Positions 220 to 20,427 of a stretch of 22,591 nucleotides of DNA are shown here, in pieces. Both the position numbers and the translations under genes were made by a program. Each line of letters opens with the position of its first letter. Positions within the stretch are counted from its first letter, which is position 1. The DNA comes from a virus. The stretch covers positions 1 to 22,591 of the IMG/VR virus record IMGVR_UViG_3300020176_000105; one strand, given 5' to 3'. The notes under the pieces are model-generated. The model made no database searches and was not told where the DNA came from. It worked only from the letters and a program-made list of their open reading frames with translations.

Positions 220-774
220 ATGTTTGACATCCTTAAAAAAGGTACGAAAAAAGTTAACCTAGAGCATTACACCCGCAATAGTGCAAAATTTGAAGATGGT
301 GAATGGTGGTATGTACAGCCGGGAGACGGAAACCGTAGAAGGGTAGAGTCCCATGCTCGTAAAAACACAAGCAGAATGTTTGTTAATGGTAAGTATATTC
401 CAAAGACACATCCACTACACAAACCCGGTCGATACAAATCACTCGATGATGCTTGGTCACACAATCAGATTGAAAGCGTTAATGAAGGTGAGGTTTACAT
501 AATTGTAAACACAGCATGGCCTGAGTGGGTAAAGGTAGGTAAGGCGGTTAGCTCTGACGACAGACTTAATGGCTACCAAACATCTTCACCATTCCGTGAC
601 TACAAAGTAATAGCAAAACTTCAAGCTGACAATAGACACGAAAAGGAAAAGGAGATGCATAAAATCTTTGAACATTTTGCCCAAGAACGCAGGGGTGAGT
701 GGTTTAAGATTGACAAGGTTACAGCAATTAAACTTTTCAATTACCAACTTAAAGGAGAAAAAGTTGCGGCGTAA
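220..774 (+). CDS. T5orf172/MUG113-type (GIY-YIG-like) domain protein
   Basis: A 184-residue protein. The C-terminal half (about residues 90-175) shows the ordered motifs of the T5orf172/MUG113 family, a divergent branch of the GIY-YIG fold: EVYIIVN (first strand), WVKVGKA, RLNGYQT, then EKEMHKIFEHF and RGEWFKI. The N-terminal half (residues 1-85) is basic and contains a HARKNTSRMFVNGKYIPKTH segment of unknown fold, possibly a DNA-binding extension. GIY-YIG relatives cut DNA, but T5orf172 proteins in phages mostly have no proven activity, so a nuclease role is an inference. The start is supported by AGGGGA at 208-213, seven bases upstream. The 3' end overlaps the next gene by 11 bases. Confidence 0.72.
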   Translation: MFDILKKGTKKVNLEHYTRNSAKFEDGEWWYVQPGDGNRRRVESHARKNTSRMFVNGKYIPKTHPLHKPGRYKSLDDAWSHNQIESVNEGEVYIIVNTAWPEWVKVGKAVSSDDRLNGYQTSSPFRDYKVIAKLQADNRHEKEKEMHKIFEHFAQERRGEWFKIDKVTAIKLFNYQLKGEKVAA

Positions 775-970
775 TGGCTTGACTAAATACGATGCACCTC
801 TACGCATCCAGTTTGAGTGGGGGCAGGAAGCATTTCAAAAGGGAAAGTTAACCTGCCCCATTGATCCAAACACAATGCAGGCAAGAGAATGGCAGAGAGG
901 ATGGAATGATGCCTACTATGTGAATTTACAGAAGGTGAAACGCAATGAACAGGCTAGAACAAGAGGCTAA
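764..970 (+). CDS. Ribosome modulation factor (RMF)-like small protein, TTG start
   Basis: A 68-residue basic protein that I start at TTG 764, because AAAGGAG at 751-757 sits seven bases upstream. The frame is open back to an ATG at 668, but that start would overlap the preceding gene by 107 bases. Residues 16-51 match the layout of ribosome modulation factor (Rmf/CrpP-type fold): G20-x-x-A23-x-x-x-G27, then C31-P32, then W43-x-x-G46-W47-x-x-A50, compared with G..A...G, CPY and W..GW..A in E. coli RMF. RMF dimerises 70S ribosomes into inactive 100S particles in starved cells. A phage copy might alter host translation or ribosome storage; this is inference from a short motif match. It lies directly upstream of the mazG-like gene. 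Confidence 0.62.
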   Translation: MRRNGLTKYDAPLRIQFEWGQEAFQKGKLTCPIDPNTMQAREWQRGWNDAYYVNLQKVKRNEQARTRG

Positions 971-8866: not shown

Positions 8867-11397
8867 TAAAATAAACCTCCAAAAGACCAATCTGATTTAA
8901 TACCTAGACCAATAACGTCCATTATGAAAGTTCCAGCAGATTTACTTGCCTCATAGTCTCCTTTAATCTTTTGAAGATCGGCAGCACTGTCTGCTTGTAT
9001 TTTAGCCACAGCTAATTGCATTTGTCTATCTGCTTCATTATCAGATGATTCCCATGCCCACTCCATAGTATCTGCATAGTATGTCCATAGGTTATCATAC
9101 GCAGTCTTACTAATATCTAAGATAGCATTAGCATTTAACTCATTAGCACGGTTAACTGCTGCAGTATCTGCAGTAGCAATTTGCCTACGCCATTGAGCGT
9201 TTGACTGTGCAATTACTAACTGGTTCTGCGCATTGAACTGGTCACGTTGATTATTCAGTTCTGCATTAAAACGATTGACTGTGTTAGCTTGTCCAGCATT
9301 AAACTGTGACTGTGCATTTTGTTGTGTTGCATTAAACTGAGATACCTGAGAAGCAAGATTAGCAAAGAACTGGTCTACTTGGTTTTGACTTGATGCATTA
9401 AACTGTGCGGCAGCGTTAGTGGCAGCTTGATCTGTAAACAAAGACTGCACACGTTGTTGTGCTTTAAACAAATCAGTCTGCTGACGATTGGATAAGTTAG
9501 CCATATCATACTGCAAAAAGTTCTGTGCATTTTGTACTGCAGCTTGCTGACGGTTATTCAAGTTAGCTGTATCTAGCTGCGCCAAGGCTGCAGCTTCTGC
9601 CATAACAAGAGCCTGCGTGTTAGACAAGTTCTGTAGGTTCATTGTGTTAGCAGCACGTGAGTTCTCTAACTGTACCTGCTGTTCTGCTGTGAAGTTCTGA
9701 TTAGCTATATCGGCAATACGGGACGCATTCTGCACTTTAACTTGGAATGCCTGATCAAACTCTTGACCCATAAATCTAGCACGTTGTTCTGCTGCCATCA
9801 TTGCTGATTGCTGCCTGTTAGATAAGTTTTGTGATTCAAACTTAGCTATTGTAGCTGCATCAGCCTGTGCAATAGGCATAGCTGATTCCATAGCAGCTTG
9901 TACCAAAGCCTGACCTGCAAGAGATGACGCACCCAATCCACGTGCAGCCATTTGTGCTGTAGCATTACGCATAGCACCTGCCGCCCATGCTGGTGTAGCA
10001 CCACCTTGGAACTGGTTCATTAGACCAGCCAACTGATCTTGTACCATTGCCTGTTGGCTAGGATTAGCCGTAGCTGCGGCAGCTTGTGTCTGCGCTGTTA
10101 GTTGAGCAGCAGCCTGTGCATCTACACCTGTGCCTGTAATAATTTCACCAGATTGTATCTGACGCTGTACAGGATTGTTAATAAGTACTGCATTGCCCTG
10201 TGCGGCCTGTAGGTTGCCCACTGAGGACGCTGTTTGCTGTGCCGCTGTAACCTGTGAACGAGGGTCGCTAGGGTCTGCCTGTGCCGCTTGTGTGGCGTTC
10301 ATAGCAGAATCTACCGCAGGAGCAGCCTGTGCAGCCTGCATTGTATTAGCTTGTGTTTGATTTACTGGACCAGCTTGTGCTGTTGAAGCCATAGCTGTTG
10401 GTACAGCTACCTGTCCAGTAAGCTGTCCTGTACCTGCTGCTACATCTTGTGATGGGTCTACAGGTGTTGTTGCAGCTACAGTCACGCCACCTGCAGGTAA
10501 TGCAGGATTATACATTTGGTCTATGCTATAATCTCCGATAGCAGGAGTTCCATCGGCACTTATAGACATACGTGGGTCACGAATACCTGTCATGTCGAAG
10601 TCAGCGTATAGACTATTTGGTGCGTCAGGATTACGCATCATTTCATATTTATTTGCGTTTGCCCAGTCTTCGTAGCTGCCCTCACCGGGAAGTACTACCT
10701 GACCCATAAAACCTTCTGCACGTGATTTTTTTGCACTAGCAACAAGTTTTTGCCATTCAGCCTGCATTTGCTGTTCAGACTTTGGACGTGATGTATCTGG
10801 TACAAATAAACTGCCTGAAAAACCACCTGTACCCGGACCACCCAATACGCCTATATTCATACTTGGGGGGTTAAGTTGTTGTTCTGGTAGATCAGGTCCT
10901 AGTTGCTGTGGAGAGATAGATTTTTGCACATTAAGACTATTAATGTTCCCTAATCCACGATAACGACCATCTGTTATATTTGGTGCAGGTGGTTGATACT
11001 GTTGTGGACCAGCCTGTGTAGTGGTTGTACCTGTTTTTGCTTGCTGTAATTGTTCAGCAGTCATATTACCACCGGCACCGGGTCCAGAAGGTAAATTGTA
11101 TGATTGTAAAACAGATGGATCAGGTGCAGCTTGTTTGTTTAAATATGTTTGTCCAGTTTGCGGGTTGTAATAATTAGGCATTACCGCAGCACCTAATGCT
11201 AAACCACCAGTCTGCATCTTACGTGCTACACCACCCCTTGCCATCTGCATAGCTTGGTTAGTATAGTTTTGCATCTGTTGTTGACGCATAGGGTCTTGGG
11301 AGACGTAATCTTGAAAACCTTGCATGTTTCCTTGATAGCCCATAACACGTGCTATCTTTTCCATGCCACTAGGTTTAAATGCTTTAAACATTGCCAT
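8866..11397 (-). CDS. Gln/Ala-rich coiled-coil virion protein with 22/11-residue repeats
   Basis: An 843-residue protein in three parts. Residues 1-70 carry basic and glycine motifs (MARGGVARKMQTGGLALG). Residues about 70-455 are low-complexity, rich in Pro, Gln, Ala and Thr, probably disordered. Residues 455-520 (GGATPAWAAGAMR, MAARGLGASSLAGQALVQAAME) are a conserved-looking helical domain that I recall from marine phage genomes. From 523 a regular repeat runs to about 741: six exact 22-residue units, then seven 11-residue units of the type QFNAxxxNxxx. The C-terminus (WTYYADTMEWAWESS) is aromatic and ends WSFGGLF. A long alpha-helical rod inside the virion or tail, perhaps an ejection protein, is my reading; family function is unknown. 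AGGGA precedes the start. Confidence 0.8.
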   Translation of the reverse strand: MAMFKAFKPSGMEKIARVMGYQGNMQGFQDYVSQDPMRQQQMQNYTNQAMQMARGGVARKMQTGGLALGAAVMPNYYNPQTGQTYLNKQAAPDPSVLQSYNLPSGPGAGGNMTAEQLQQAKTGTTTTQAGPQQYQPPAPNITDGRYRGLGNINSLNVQKSISPQQLGPDLPEQQLNPPSMNIGVLGGPGTGGFSGSLFVPDTSRPKSEQQMQAEWQKLVASAKKSRAEGFMGQVVLPGEGSYEDWANANKYEMMRNPDAPNSLYADFDMTGIRDPRMSISADGTPAIGDYSIDQMYNPALPAGGVTVAATTPVDPSQDVAAGTGQLTGQVAVPTAMASTAQAGPVNQTQANTMQAAQAAPAVDSAMNATQAAQADPSDPRSQVTAAQQTASSVGNLQAAQGNAVLINNPVQRQIQSGEIITGTGVDAQAAAQLTAQTQAAAATANPSQQAMVQDQLAGLMNQFQGGATPAWAAGAMRNATAQMAARGLGASSLAGQALVQAAMESAMPIAQADAATIAKFESQNLSNRQQSAMMAAEQRARFMGQEFDQAFQVKVQNASRIADIANQNFTAEQQVQLENSRAANTMNLQNLSNTQALVMAEAAALAQLDTANLNNRQQAAVQNAQNFLQYDMANLSNRQQTDLFKAQQRVQSLFTDQAATNAAAQFNASSQNQVDQFFANLASQVSQFNATQQNAQSQFNAGQANTVNRFNAELNNQRDQFNAQNQLVIAQSNAQWRRQIATADTAAVNRANELNANAILDISKTAYDNLWTYYADTMEWAWESSDNEADRQMQLAVAKIQADSAADLQKIKGDYEASKSAGTFIMDVIGLGIKSDWSFGGLF
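9175..9831 (-). repeat. Coding repeat: six 22-residue and seven 11-residue (hendecad) units
   Basis: This encodes residues 523-741 of the 843-residue protein. Six consecutive blocks of exactly 22 residues start with [QA]N[LF][ST]N or a variant (523, 545, 567, 589, 611, 633). After a ten-residue joint (655-664), seven blocks of exactly 11 residues follow, mostly beginning QFNA (665, 676, 687, 698, 709, 720, 731). No indel occurs inside either block. An 11-residue period is that of right-handed (hendecad) coiled coils. Confidence 0.8.
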
Positions 11398-12248: not shown

Positions 12249-14119
12249 TATGGTGATCCGTAGGCAGTTACGTTACCTGCCGCAGTAGCATTGCCACTAG
12301 AGTCTAATTTAAATTTAGCTACATTATTATACCTAAACTCTAAGTCAGTACCGTCAAGCACAATAGTCCAGCTACCAAACTGAATAGACTGACCATTAGT
12401 GTCTAATGTGCCACCAAGTTGAGGGGTAGTATCGTTTACAAGTTCAGTACTAACCCCGCCGATAGCACTAGACAAACTGTTTATTTGTGTTTGAATATTA
12501 CTTGTAACGCCGTCAAGGTAGTCATATTCAGTAGTGGTTACGCCTGTCGCACGTAAGTCTTTAGCATAGTTAAGGTCTGTTACTGTACCAGTAAATCCAT
12601 CTAGGTTATTTAACTCTGCTGCTGTAGCACTAACTGTTGTTCCATTAATCTGGAAGCTAGATGCATTTACTGTGCCTTCAATATTAGCTAACAAAGTACC
12701 TGTAGTAATTGATAAGTTACCCGTTGAGGCTCCGGTAAATGATCCCGTACCAACGACAAATTTATCAAGGCTTTCATCCCAGCCAATAAAGGCATTAGAA
12801 GATGTACCTCTTTCAATAACAATACCAGCATCATTAACAGGTGAACCTGATGTACCATTACCTAGTTCAATCAAAGAATCAGCTACGACTGTGTTGGCTG
12901 TATTGACAGTGGTAGTAGAACCGTTAACAGTAAGGTTGCCTGTAACAGTTAAGTTACCGCCGACAGCTACATTACTGGTTGTGTTAATGCTTTGCATATA
13001 AGCATTAGACCAGTAGTTAGAACTATCTCCAAGTGTATATGTATTAGTAATAGAAGGAATAATATTAGAAGATACATCTGCAATAAATGTTACTGTGTCT
13101 GTCGCAGCGTTACCAATAGTAGTATTACCCTGCACAGTCAAGTTACCTGATAGCGTAGAGTTTCCGGTTACAGATAAGGTAGAAGACAGTGTAGCAGCAC
13201 CGCTAGCATTAAGGGTTCCTACAGAAGTGTTCCCAAGAGATGCTGCACCTGTAGTGGTAATAGTAGAAGAGCCAGTGTCAATATTGCCAAAACCACTAGT
13301 AATAGAGCCAGCATTAAGTGCGCCGACAGTTGTTACGTTAGGCATTGAAACAAGATATGTTTCAAAGTAATCCTCAAAGTCAGACATAGCAACTTGTTTC
13401 ATTACGCTGCTATCGTTTAGAATAAGCCTGTCTACTGTATTAATTGTAACACCTGATGCAGTATTACTACCGTCCAGAATATTGAGTTCTGTAGTAGTAA
13501 TGTTTGCACCATCTAAAATATTAATTTCGCTAGCAGTAGCGGTAACACCATCTAGGATGTTTAACTCTGCCGTTGTTACAGTTGCACCATCAAGAATACC
13601 AAGTTCAGTTTGATCTACGCTAGATGAACCAATTTCAATTGTTGTTCCTGCAGTAATACTACCAGATACATCTAAGTCACCATTTAAATCTACAAGAGGT
13701 GTGACAATCTGTAGTTCTACGTCTGCAGCAATATCAAGTTGACCGTCTACAGACGAGTGAATGTACAGAGCGTTATCCCGGAACTGTACTTTATTGGCAA
13801 GAAGGAATGTAGTATCTTCATCAAAGCCGTCAATATATGCATTACCATCAATGTACAGATTTTTAAATTGTGCGCCTACTGATCCCAAGTCAAGTGTATT
13901 ACTTGTCAGTGGTGTGACTTGGGTACTTGATACGTTAAGATCACCGGCAGGACCAATCTCAAGAATACGTGCGCCACCTGCTGCAGTACCATCGTGAGTA
14001 TGCCCTGTTGATGCGCTAAACGCTGCTTCAATAGCGTTAAACTCATCATTAAAGTCGTTAGCATCAATAATGTTATTAGCTACAATATTAGCTGCTGCTT
14101 GTCTGGTATAACCTGCCAT
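12248..14119 (-). CDS. Tail fibre protein with ELNILDG repeats
   Basis: A 623-residue fibre. The N-terminal part (residues 1-50: FNDEFNAIEAAFSASTGH, HDGTAAGGAR) looks like a virion-attachment region, followed by NTLDLGSVGAQFKNLYIDG, a module common in phage fibres. Residues 169-217 contain four copies of a 14-residue repeat (TELGILDGATVT, AELNILDGVTAT, SEINILDGANIT, TELNILDG); variants return near 510-555 (AELNNLDG, EYDYLDG). Between them lie Ser/Thr/Gly-rich beta-repeats (LSGNLTVQGNTTIG, VGGNLTVTGNLTVNG) typical of trimeric beta-fibres. No S74 chaperone is present. GGAAGAAAG lies upstream of the ATG. Role in receptor binding is inferred from fold type and position. Confidence 0.82.
   Translation of the reverse strand: MAGYTRQAAANIVANNIIDANDFNDEFNAIEAAFSASTGHTHDGTAAGGARILEIGPAGDLNVSSTQVTPLTSNTLDLGSVGAQFKNLYIDGNAYIDGFDEDTTFLLANKVQFRDNALYIHSSVDGQLDIAADVELQIVTPLVDLNGDLDVSGSITAGTTIEIGSSSVDQTELGILDGATVTTAELNILDGVTATASEINILDGANITTTELNILDGSNTASGVTINTVDRLILNDSSVMKQVAMSDFEDYFETYLVSMPNVTTVGALNAGSITSGFGNIDTGSSTITTTGAASLGNTSVGTLNASGAATLSSTLSVTGNSTLSGNLTVQGNTTIGNAATDTVTFIADVSSNIIPSITNTYTLGDSSNYWSNAYMQSINTTSNVAVGGNLTVTGNLTVNGSTTTVNTANTVVADSLIELGNGTSGSPVNDAGIVIERGTSSNAFIGWDESLDKFVVGTGSFTGASTGNLSITTGTLLANIEGTVNASSFQINGTTVSATAAELNNLDGFTGTVTDLNYAKDLRATGVTTTEYDYLDGVTSNIQTQINSLSSAIGGVSTELVNDTTPQLGGTLDTNGQSIQFGSWTIVLDGTDLEFRYNNVAKFKLDSSGNATAAGNVTAYGSP
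13469..13615 (-). repeat. Four 14-residue ELNILDG coding repeats
   Basis: Residues 169-217 of the 623-residue fibre: four units with consensus xTExxILDGxxxT at an exact spacing of 14 residues (42 bases). On the plus strand the units can be followed as recurring variants of ATCYARRAT within TTBARYTC contexts. The DNA copies have diverged but the period is intact. Confidence 0.75.
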
Positions 14120-17614: not shown

Positions 17615-17857
17615 TTAGGCTGAGTATGCCTGTCCAGCAGCAATAGCCGCATTAACCGCAGTCATATCCTCATCAGTCCAAAACTCTTTAGCAACCATAA
17701 TCTCAAGATGCTCAACATTCCTGTTTACACAGTCCTGCTTGTCTGCGGCATCATCGTCTGCCATAGCCTCACCAGCAATAATAGCATTGATGAGGTCAAC
17801 GCTGTGACCCATCGCTGTATAATGCTGTGCGATTTGTTCTGCTGTTAGTTCGTCCAT
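17615..17857 (-). CDS. Small acidic protein in fibre cluster, unknown function
   Basis: An 80-residue acidic, Ala-rich helical protein (LTAEQIAQHYTAMGHSVDL, EFWTDEDMTAVNAAIAAG). No membrane segment, signal peptide or known motif. It starts at ATG 17857 with AAGGAG about eight bases upstream, between the big S74 fibre gene and the repeat-rich tail protein. Position and composition are like small assembly chaperones that accompany fibre genes, but this is a guess from context. Confidence 0.68.
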   Translation of the reverse strand: MDELTAEQIAQHYTAMGHSVDLINAIIAGEAMADDDAADKQDCVNRNVEHLEIMVAKEFWTDEDMTAVNAAIAAGQAYSA

Positions 17858-17874
17858 TTTATTCTCCTTGTAAA

Positions 17875-20427
17875 TTAGGACTCAAGTGCGGCTATACGAG
17901 CCTCAAGTGCTGTGATTGTTTCTTGCTGTTCTTTGATTGCAGCGGTCAATAACGGAATGATGTCTGTATATGACATACCTAAAAATTCGCCAGCATTATC
18001 TTCTTGTGATTGCACTGCTTCTGGCAAAACCGCTTGAACATCTTGTGCAATCAAGAACGGTCTACGAGTTCCTTCTTCCTCTATTTTATATTTACCAATA
18101 ACAGTCCGAAGTTGTGATACTTTATTCACAGCGTCAGTAATCGGCTCAATAATATCCTTTCTGGTTTCATCTGAAATAGCTGCCCAGCTTGTTGCATTGT
18201 GCGCTAGATAAACACCACTTCCTGATGCTCTTCTGCCATACGCATACAGGGAAGAATCCCAGCTTGTTATATATGGATTGGCAGCGTTGGCAGTTCCCTG
18301 AAGAGAAAGACCAACCCCATTATCCAAATACACTCTAGGGTCACCATCGCCATTAGACAGCACGATGTTGTTGTCGGATGTGGTGATGTTTAGGCCGCCT
18401 TGGTTGCCGGTGTAGTTACCAAGAATAGTATTACTTGAGCCAGTGGTCACAGAATAACCACTATTAACACCGCCAACAAAAGTGTTTTTAGTTCCATTAG
18501 TTACACTGTAACCACTTTGCATACCTAAAAATGTGTTAAAAGCATTGCCTGTTCGGTTTTGTGAATAGCCTGCCGCATATCCAACTGCTGTGCTACCTGA
18601 TGCGGTGGTGTTGGAGTAAAGAGCCGCATATCCAACAGAAACATTGTTAGCACCAGTTGTGTTTTGTCTTAAAGAAGCAGCACCAAAAGATGAATTATAA
18701 TTGCCTGTTGTGTTTGAGTATTGTGAACGATAGCCAAAGGCAGCATTTGGAGTGCCAGTAGTGTTTGCGTAGCCTGCCTGATAACCAACAGCAGTGTTTT
18801 CGCTACCGGTGGTGTTGAAGCGTAAGGCTTGTTTACCTAAACCAGTGTTGTAGTTACCCGTGGTGTTTGCATACATAGATTGCAAACCAACTGCTACATT
18901 ATCTATTCCTGTAGTATTTGAATACATACTGGTGTAGCCAACCGCTGTGTTAGAATCTGCGGTGGTGTTGGATAAAAGTGCGGAATTGCCCAGTGCGGTA
19001 TTGTAGCTGCCTGTGGTGTTGGAAAACAGAGATTTCCACCCATAGCCAGATAGATAATTTCCTGTTGTGTTGTTATACAGGGAGTATGCACCACTAGCTA
19101 CATTATAAGTTCCAGTAGTATTATTATACGCCGCCTGAAAACCCACTGCTGTGTTTTCGCTGGCGGTGGTGTTGGAGTAGAGGGCATAACTACCATAAGA
19201 AGTATTGTATGCACCTGTAGTATTTAACCTTAAAGCAAGATAACCCATTGCGGTGTTATCAACACCAGTTGTGTTAAAGTCTAACGAAAGATAGCCTAGT
19301 GCGTTGTTTCTTGTTCCTGTTGTATTTGATTGCAAAGCCTGATAACCAACAGCCGTGTTGTTGCTTGCGGTGGTGTTGGCATATAAAGCAGACTTACCTA
19401 TTGCGGTATTGTTTGAGCCAGAAGTATTAGTGTTAAGTGCCGCATCACCAAATGCGGAATTGTATGCGCCGTTAATATTGTTGCTTGCTGACGCATGACC
19501 CATAGAGGTGTTGTAACTGCCAGTTGTGTTTGCGTCTAATGCAAGAGAGCCTGTTGCCACATTTCGTGTGCCAGTAGTATTTGCGGTGAGTGCCTGATAG
19601 CCGACCGCAGTGTTGTTGCTTGCGGTGGTATTTGCATTTCCTGCTAATCCACCTATAAAAGTGTTAGAATTTCCTGTAGTAGTGTTTCTACCTGCATTAG
19701 AACCTACTGCTGTATTATAAATATTTCCAGAAGAATTAACTTGATTTTCTAATGCACTTTTGCCAAGTGCTACGCTATTTTGACCACCCGTTTCACTTTT
19801 TAATGCTTCATAACCAAATGCCGTATTGCCATTTCCTACAGTATTAGCATACAACGACTGATAACCCACTGCGGTGCTTTGCGAGGCGGTGGTGTTGGCG
19901 CGAAGCGCTTGTTGCCCAAGTGCCGTGTTATATGACCCAGTGGTATTTAAATATAGTGCAGAATACCCAACACTTGCGTTTGCCGTCCCGCTTGAGTTTG
20001 TGCTTAAAGCATATCCACCAACCGCTGTGTTGTTACCAGCGGTATTTGCATACAAAGACTGATACCCAACAGCAGTGTTGTTGCTTGCGGTGGTGTTGGA
20101 GTTAAGTGCTTCTTCGCCTAGCCCTGTATTGTATGAACCAGAGGTGTTGTTCACAAGGCTATTTTTACCAGCGGCAGTATTGTAACTACCGTCAGTGTTG
20201 CTGTATAAAGCGTTATCTCCAATTGCAACATTACGCTGTCCTGTTGTAACTGCACCAAACGCATTATCACCCAACGCCACGTTGTCTGTACCAACAGGAT
20301 AGTTACCGTCCAGCTTGATTGTGCCGGAGTCAACAGAGACATTGCCAGCTACAGTGAGGCCGTCAACCGTAAGGGTTCCTGTGATATCCTTATCTGCGCT
20401 ATCTGCTAAGTCTCTTGCTCTACTCAT
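17875..20427 (-). CDS. Tail fibre/adhesin of 17-residue repeats with S74 self-cleaving chaperone
   Basis: An 850-residue fibre. Residues 1-47 (MSRARDLADSADKD, GTLTVDGLTVAG) are a probable attachment segment. Residues 48-678 are about 37 tandem 17-residue repeats, consensus YNTAxGxxALxxNTTGS, like the stacked repeats of trimeric YadA-head-type adhesins. Residues 679-748 form a linker tip. The C-terminus (about 749-850) is a Peptidase S74 intramolecular chaperone: S752-D753-E-T-R-K757 gives the Ser-Lys pair five residues apart, followed by GKYKIEEEG, FLIAQDVQAVLPEAV and a terminal coiled coil (QQETITALEARIAALE). In this family the chaperone trimerises the fibre and then cuts itself off before the serine, here releasing about 99 residues. 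TAATG start overlap with the preceding gene. Confidence 0.88.
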   Translation of the reverse strand: MSRARDLADSADKDITGTLTVDGLTVAGNVSVDSGTIKLDGNYPVGTDNVALGDNAFGAVTTGQRNVAIGDNALYSNTDGSYNTAAGKNSLVNNTSGSYNTGLGEEALNSNTTASNNTAVGYQSLYANTAGNNTAVGGYALSTNSSGTANASVGYSALYLNTTGSYNTALGQQALRANTTASQSTAVGYQSLYANTVGNGNTAFGYEALKSETGGQNSVALGKSALENQVNSSGNIYNTAVGSNAGRNTTTGNSNTFIGGLAGNANTTASNNTAVGYQALTANTTGTRNVATGSLALDANTTGSYNTSMGHASASNNINGAYNSAFGDAALNTNTSGSNNTAIGKSALYANTTASNNTAVGYQALQSNTTGTRNNALGYLSLDFNTTGVDNTAMGYLALRLNTTGAYNTSYGSYALYSNTTASENTAVGFQAAYNNTTGTYNVASGAYSLYNNTTGNYLSGYGWKSLFSNTTGSYNTALGNSALLSNTTADSNTAVGYTSMYSNTTGIDNVAVGLQSMYANTTGNYNTGLGKQALRFNTTGSENTAVGYQAGYANTTGTPNAAFGYRSQYSNTTGNYNSSFGAASLRQNTTGANNVSVGYAALYSNTTASGSTAVGYAAGYSQNRTGNAFNTFLGMQSGYSVTNGTKNTFVGGVNSGYSVTTGSSNTILGNYTGNQGGLNITTSDNNIVLSNGDGDPRVYLDNGVGLSLQGTANAANPYITSWDSSLYAYGRRASGSGVYLAHNATSWAAISDETRKDIIEPITDAVNKVSQLRTVIGKYKIEEEGTRRPFLIAQDVQAVLPEAVQSQEDNAGEFLGMSYTDIIPLLTAAIKEQQETITALEARIAALES
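18394..20286 (-). repeat. About 37 tandem 51-base coding repeats (17 residues each)
   Basis: The repeat region of the 850-residue fibre. Most units are exactly 17 residues, with consensus [YN]NTAxGxxALxxNTTGS; a few, near residues 200-260 and at the end, are 16, 18 or 20. Some adjacent units are nearly identical in DNA (for example the recurring gcggtggtgttggc phrase), pointing to recent unit copying. The array could expand or shrink by recombination in steps of 51 bases without loss of frame. Confidence 0.85.

Follow-up and report, generated by a model that had tools for sequence, protein, structure and literature searches.

The open reading frame at positions 764-970 (+ strand) of the window, by which is meant the whole 22,591-bp stretch of DNA analysed here, an IMG/VR viral record with kinship to the HMO-2011-type marine phages, is best explained as the gene of a two-helix protein, 68 residues long, from the RMF/CrpP fold superfamily, within a large phage subfamily tied to ribonucleotide reductase (RNR). 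RNR is the enzyme that makes the building blocks of DNA, and ribosome modulation factor (RMF) is a bacterial ribosome-hibernation factor. The original prediction had read the product as a phage copy of RMF that could act on host ribosomes, a functional reading which probably puts the stress in the wrong place, the strongest evidence linking the family to RNR. The subfamily is defined by the signature G..AF..G...[NC]P[YF]...[KR]EW.RG[FWY][ND].[AGS][YF], and the EW.RG[FWY] motif is present in the window protein.

The gene and its surroundings in the window

The frame on the + strand, which codes for 68 residues and ends with its stop codon, is present as originally described, opens with TTG at 764, and is confirmed as a genuine conserved coding gene and not a chance frame. 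Its relatives in IMG/VR number 106 loci when searched with the single sequence and 538 when searched with an alignment; the median pairwise dN/dS is 0.06 (NG86, 107 pairs, overlaps with neighbours left out), and diversity is highest at the third codon position (0.32 vs 0.11 and 0.06 at the other two). With regard to the start, the relatives open with [M/V/L]RRNGL at the codon matching TTG 764, which is ATG in most of them, GTG in others (e.g. L016, L020, L027) and TTG in still others (e.g. L008, L011, L018); a ribosome-binding site, AAAGGAG, lies at 751-757 (+), 6 nt before the TTG, so that the proposed choice of start stands. The upstream alternative, which the original prediction had set aside under the name of ATG 668, actually reads TTG, and a start at 668 was dropped, the upstream reading being absent from the relatives compared at the start region.

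The gene is embedded among others on the same strand. A small gene of unknown function (phrog_21153) occupies 11-217 and is followed at 220-774 by a T5orf172/MUG113-type (GIY-YIG-like) gene, which shares 11 nt (764-774) with the frame under study; downstream, the gene of a MazG nucleotide pyrophosphohydrolase (945-1319; Pfam MazG E 4e-9, PHROG 229) shares 26 nt with it (945-970). The latter arrangement is the usual one in this phage group, mazG lying immediately downstream, overlapping or adjoining, in 140 of the 145 HMO-type relatives. On the other side, RNR is found upstream in 141/142 HMO-type loci; base 1 of the window aligns to position 3299 of the relative L010, some 125 bp beyond the 3' end of the RNR match there, and therefore the RNR of the window phage is expected just beyond the left edge. 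In L008 and L010 RNR lies directly upstream, and by comparison with them the window phage probably has one as well.

The gene that separates RNR from the RMF-fold gene is replaced by others among the HMO-type relatives, and one or more genes stand between the two in the HMO-2011 and CRP-1/CRP-345 groups. This slot is filled by the T5orf172-type gene (220-774) in the window and by two other frames without Pfam match in HMO-2011 (L002) and CRP-345 (L003), differences which suggest a hot spot of exchange.

Predicted fold and kinship with RMF

The AlphaFold2 model of the 68-residue protein (pLDDT 84) consists of two predicted helices joined by a linker: helix 1 (DAPLRIQFEWGQEAFQK) spans codons 10-26 (791-841, +), and helix 2 spans codons 38-67 (875-964, +) and contains the EWQRGW motif (codons 42-47, 887-904, +), in which E42, W43, R45 and G46 are invariant, as are L13, G20 and F24, in the profile of 48 relatives (alignment A1). 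The arrangement G..A...G / CP / W..GW..A, which had been taken as the mark of RMF, is indeed present in the product, with the qualification that its CP element is confined to the close subfamily. Among PDB structures searched with Foldseek, the top match of the model is RMF (2jrm; probability 0.85, TM 0.59/0.66), the next best probability being 0.35; the E-value of 0.93 for 2jrm is explained by the tiny size of the fold. A divergent second member (L237) has the same predicted fold, and again 2jrm comes first (probability 0.80) and another RMF chain third. The two helices and short linker anticipated by the original prediction are thus what structure prediction alone returns.

Sequence profiles point in the same direction, at lower scores. 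The sole Pfam match of the protein is the RMF family PF04957, as had been proposed, with E 0.0069 and 16.9 bits, below the curated cut-off of 27.9 bits; 25 of the 48 family members match PF04957 at E<=1 (best 8e-4), and the best value in a wider phage set is 5.6e-6. The best NCBIfam model is Rmf_CrpP_fam (NF041886; E 0.0014, 18.2 bits vs a cut-off of 28), while Rmf_like_phage (NF041887) gives E 0.021 and 14.3 bits vs a cut-off of 40, neither threshold being reached. In profile alignments (hhalign), A1 matches a set of RMF-like bacterial sequences (A4) with 96.4% and true RMFs with 50%, values that 150 column shuffles approach to at most 5.6% for A4 and 12.7% for RMF; with the wider phage set (A6) the corresponding figures are 97% and 82%. 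Since A4 was itself picked by PF04957, the hhalign and Pfam results count as a single line of evidence. A PDB profile search with A1 placed two RMF chains first (E 0.08), near unrelated FRB domains, and tblastn of E. coli RMF against phages gave no match. Two other candidates were rejected, namely the FRB-domain (mTOR) matches at E about 0.1, which scored beside RMF without structural support, and an SSB-like PHROG match at chance level (E 0.18).

Direct membership of the RMF family fails on both score and functional residues. Nonetheless, the protein can be retained as RMF-like in the sense of a distant relative of the fold, in view of the PF04957 match, the hhalign value of 96%, the two-helix model and 2jrm as top PDB match; the original prediction was to be abandoned if there were no significant RMF profile match and a fold unlike two helices, and, given the profile similarity and the model, that situation has not arisen. 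From profile and model together we conclude that the 68-residue protein is a distant homologue of RMF, sharing its predicted fold without being an RMF itself; the structural intuition behind the original prediction, like its choice of start, is right.

The likeness to RMF (PF04957; PDB 2jrm, 4v8g, 6h4n) extends to size, to the two helices with their short linker, to a basic pI, to the glycines of helix 1 (G16, G23) and to the W..GW motif. Unlike RMF, the protein scores below the family cut-off, has an invariant E and R in EW.RG, belongs to a family in which many relatives carry a linker insertion (about 10-13 extra residues) and is linked to RNR; moreover, of the residues assigned to ribosome binding or dimerisation only G23 is kept in register. 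The fold superfamily covered by NF041886 and NF041887 is broad and already holds phage proteins, although the scores obtained here lie below both cut-offs, and no published function of these two families, or link of theirs to RNR, was found. Phage proteins of the RMF fold have been annotated before, as in the case of the RMF-superfamily proteins of phage Milano (PMC6588377) and of the 'Ribosome modulation factor' of Caulobacter phage CcrBL9, which was matched in BFVD.

Linkage to ribonucleotide reductase and possible roles

IMG/VR was scanned with a degenerate DNA form of [KN]EW.RG..[ND].[AG][YF], with no condition on the neighbours. Among the scan matches listed, 80 of 80 are RMF-like open reading frames, one of them (L300) being cut by the contig end and represented by the motif only, and RNR is on the same contig in 76 of the 80. 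In 73 of the matches listed the retrieved stretch itself contains RNR, always on the same strand, at a median distance of 201 bp and a maximum of about 2.1 kb; for L296, L299 and L300 it is on the full record (presence only). The remaining four of the 80 sit no more than 1.5 kb from the end of their contigs. In 38 of the 73 listed cases RNR is directly adjacent (120 bp or less), with several start/stop overlaps of -4 or -11 nt; eight of the 73 have the RMF-fold gene ahead of RNR. The linkage holds in all 13 of the clusters formed at 50% identity from the matches listed, and in seven out of seven complete isolates with the gene (RNR within 0.9 kb). The zone reaching 1.5 kb from RNR makes up about 9% of each such genome, a figure that supports a chance comparison as a guide only, because the assumed independence and uniform placement do not strictly apply; since phage lineages are related, the linkage counts are not independent.

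The linkage crosses RNR classes, gene orders and two replication backbones. The RNRs concerned are of the class II HMO type, of the ctYwJ313 type with a B12-dependent RNR insertion domain, of the CRP-212 type and of class I (nrdA-nrdB), and the orders observed are RNR followed by the RMF-fold gene, the reverse, mazG-nrdB-nrdA followed by the RMF-fold gene, and RNR, another gene, the RMF-fold gene and mazG. Distant relatives found by similarity of the RMF-fold protein alone also adjoin RNRs of other classes: those of L094 and L215-L222 come after class I nrdA-nrdB, that of L096 after mazG-nrdB-nrdA, and those of CRP-212-type and L095-type relatives after another RNR. As to the replication genes, a PolA of the HMO type carrying a DnaJ insert occurs in L253 (class I RNR) as well as in HMO-2011 (class II), and another PolA type is common to L236 (class II, with a primase-helicase) and L237 (class I).

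In the control loci, with flanks of 1.5-5 kb, no RNR was found within 1.5 kb of canonical RMF or of alphaproteobacterial RMF-like loci, nor near two other phage RMF-like frames (L366 3959-4420 of RHph_TM16 and L367 5001-5132 of Ep020); RMF-fold proteins in phages therefore extend beyond the RNR-linked subfamily. Conversely, many phages with RNR do not have the gene (CRP-2, CRP-603, CRP-207, CRP-13, CRP-5, ICBM2, CRP-738, Yaboi and RHph_I3_11), so that the gene is an option for RNR and not a requirement, and strict co-dependence is ruled out. No literature linking phage RMF-fold genes with RNR was found in open-access text, a weak negative.

Since the family lies nearly always beside RNR, a part in the supply of DNA precursors is likelier than one in ribosome hibernation, and we give an even chance to the proposal that the phage uses the protein, built on the RMF fold, as an accessory factor for RNR and dNTP supply. 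Such a factor of dNTP synthesis would act by binding other proteins, either RNR itself or a complex centred on it, and might in this way alter the oligomeric state or the allosteric control of RNR, or tether it to MazG or the replisome. Because the gene accompanies RNRs of both class I and class II, we expect a contact point common to both, which might be the barrel of the alpha subunit, the specificity site or the use of the product, and would involve no class-specific cofactor. More specifically, and more tentatively, at somewhat short of even probability, the protein may be a regulator or scaffold that partners RNR of whatever class in marine phages, evolved from the RMF fold and kept beside class I and class II enzymes through repeated changes of gene order and RNR class.

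The neighbourhoods of RNR genes are known hot spots of homing endonucleases (PMC10448857), and, since homing-type nucleases cluster there, the gene could also be a passenger, carried along on the same recombination or homing cassette as RNR and having an unrelated role such as counter-defence or nucleic-acid binding. The swapping of T5orf172-type and other genes between RNR and the RMF-fold gene fits this reading, as does the clustering of such nucleases (PMC10448857); we consider it rather unlikely, because the gene is under purifying selection and overlaps RNR directly, in both orders and with both class I and class II enzymes, with no nuclease between.

Improbable to a further degree is a true RMF-like action, in which the protein would bind the 30S platform near the anti-Shine-Dalgarno sequence and slow translation or shift the ribosome pools during infection; the adjacency to RNR would then be understood as reduced translation sparing nucleotides for DNA synthesis. 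The predicted fold and distant homology speak for it, together with a basic pI of about 10, as in E. coli RMF. Against it, the residues R3, K5 and R11 of RMF, assigned to ribosome binding, and R45, assigned with G23 to dimerisation (PMC8778775), are not conserved in register: the first three fall on T7, Y9 and I15 when the hhalign register is extended to the N-terminus, only I15 lying inside the aligned stretch, and R45 corresponds in that register to N48 or D, while G23 corresponds to the conserved G27. Basic residues near the expected ribosome-binding positions (R2, R3, K8, R14) may substitute. Canonical RMF was found in none of 289 sampled genomes from the class to which a Paracoccaceae contig belongs, taken as Alphaproteobacteria (best 38.9 bits; gamma-type RMF matches reach 63-82 bits in a 200-genome sample of the phylum), and most of the alphaproteobacteria sampled for it carry the long-HPF C-terminal domain (77/115). 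In addition, RMF genes are themselves not near RNR, and homologues of RMF can change function, as in BatR of P. aeruginosa, a kinase-binding protein with no role in hibernation (PMC13411936). With these residues unconserved and the family tied to RNR almost everywhere it is found, the hibernation role originally proposed is not upheld.

Small proteins associated with RNR are known, among them NrdH/glutaredoxin, NrdI and yeast regulators such as Sml1; the protein resembles them in being a small product associated with RNR and differs in fold and in having no redox motif, and we know of no sequence relation between them. That it replaces glutaredoxin as RNR reductant, or serves as an adaptor to host thioredoxin, was attractive at first, since glutaredoxin fills the slot after RNR in CRP-2, CRP-603, CRP-207, CRP-13, CRP-5 and ICBM2, all without the RMF-fold gene. 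The idea lost ground because CRP-345 and CRP-1 carry both genes, their glutaredoxins lying unannotated next to RNR, so that no simple replacement applies, and CRP-235 has a glutaredoxin elsewhere; moreover, cysteine is absent from 54 of 70 members (the window protein has one), which argues against a thiol reductant, and the CxxC motif and thioredoxin fold of glutaredoxin/NrdH were not found in the all-helical window model. We regard this function as very unlikely. The least probable reading of all, that MazG and not RNR is the partner, draws on the overlap or adjacency of mazG in the HMO-type relatives, and has against it the position of mazG on the far side of RNR in the CRP-212, CRP-3 and ctYwJ313 types and by the many class I loci with no mazG match nearby.

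Members in public phage genomes and contigs

If the proposed role beside RNR is true, a small, abundant and overlooked protein becomes a testable handle on the way phages tune their nucleotide metabolism, the RMF fold is in use away from the ribosome, and the label 'ribosome modulation factor' can mislead when given to such genes. Public genome records of at least four phages leave the RMF-fold gene without annotation: the frames come immediately or a short way after RNR in CRP-212 (L005 13007-13174), CRP-3 (L006 12876-13058), CRP-235 (L355, about 13379-13537) and ctYwJ313 (L007, about 9401-9604). Orthologues with 51-62% local identity and the same neighbourhood, annotated only as hypothetical, are gp20 of Puniceispirillum phage HMO-2011 (YP_008320282.1), which has a linker insertion, gp38 of CRP-345 and gp29 of CRP-1. 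In the latter two phages, the unannotated glutaredoxin frames (CRP-345 18609-18788, L003; CRP-1 17744-17923, L004) are flanked by RNR on one side and the next annotated gene on the other.

Two occurrences in bacterial records deserve mention. A Paracoccaceae single-cell contig (L097 3439-6899) carries an RNR fragment, an RMF-fold frame, another frame and an integrase-like frame, and is possibly a decayed prophage. The same two contigs, with an HMO-like gene order, appear under both Neomarinimicrobiota and Flavobacteriales MAG titles (L088-L091), and are probably phage contigs binned into both.
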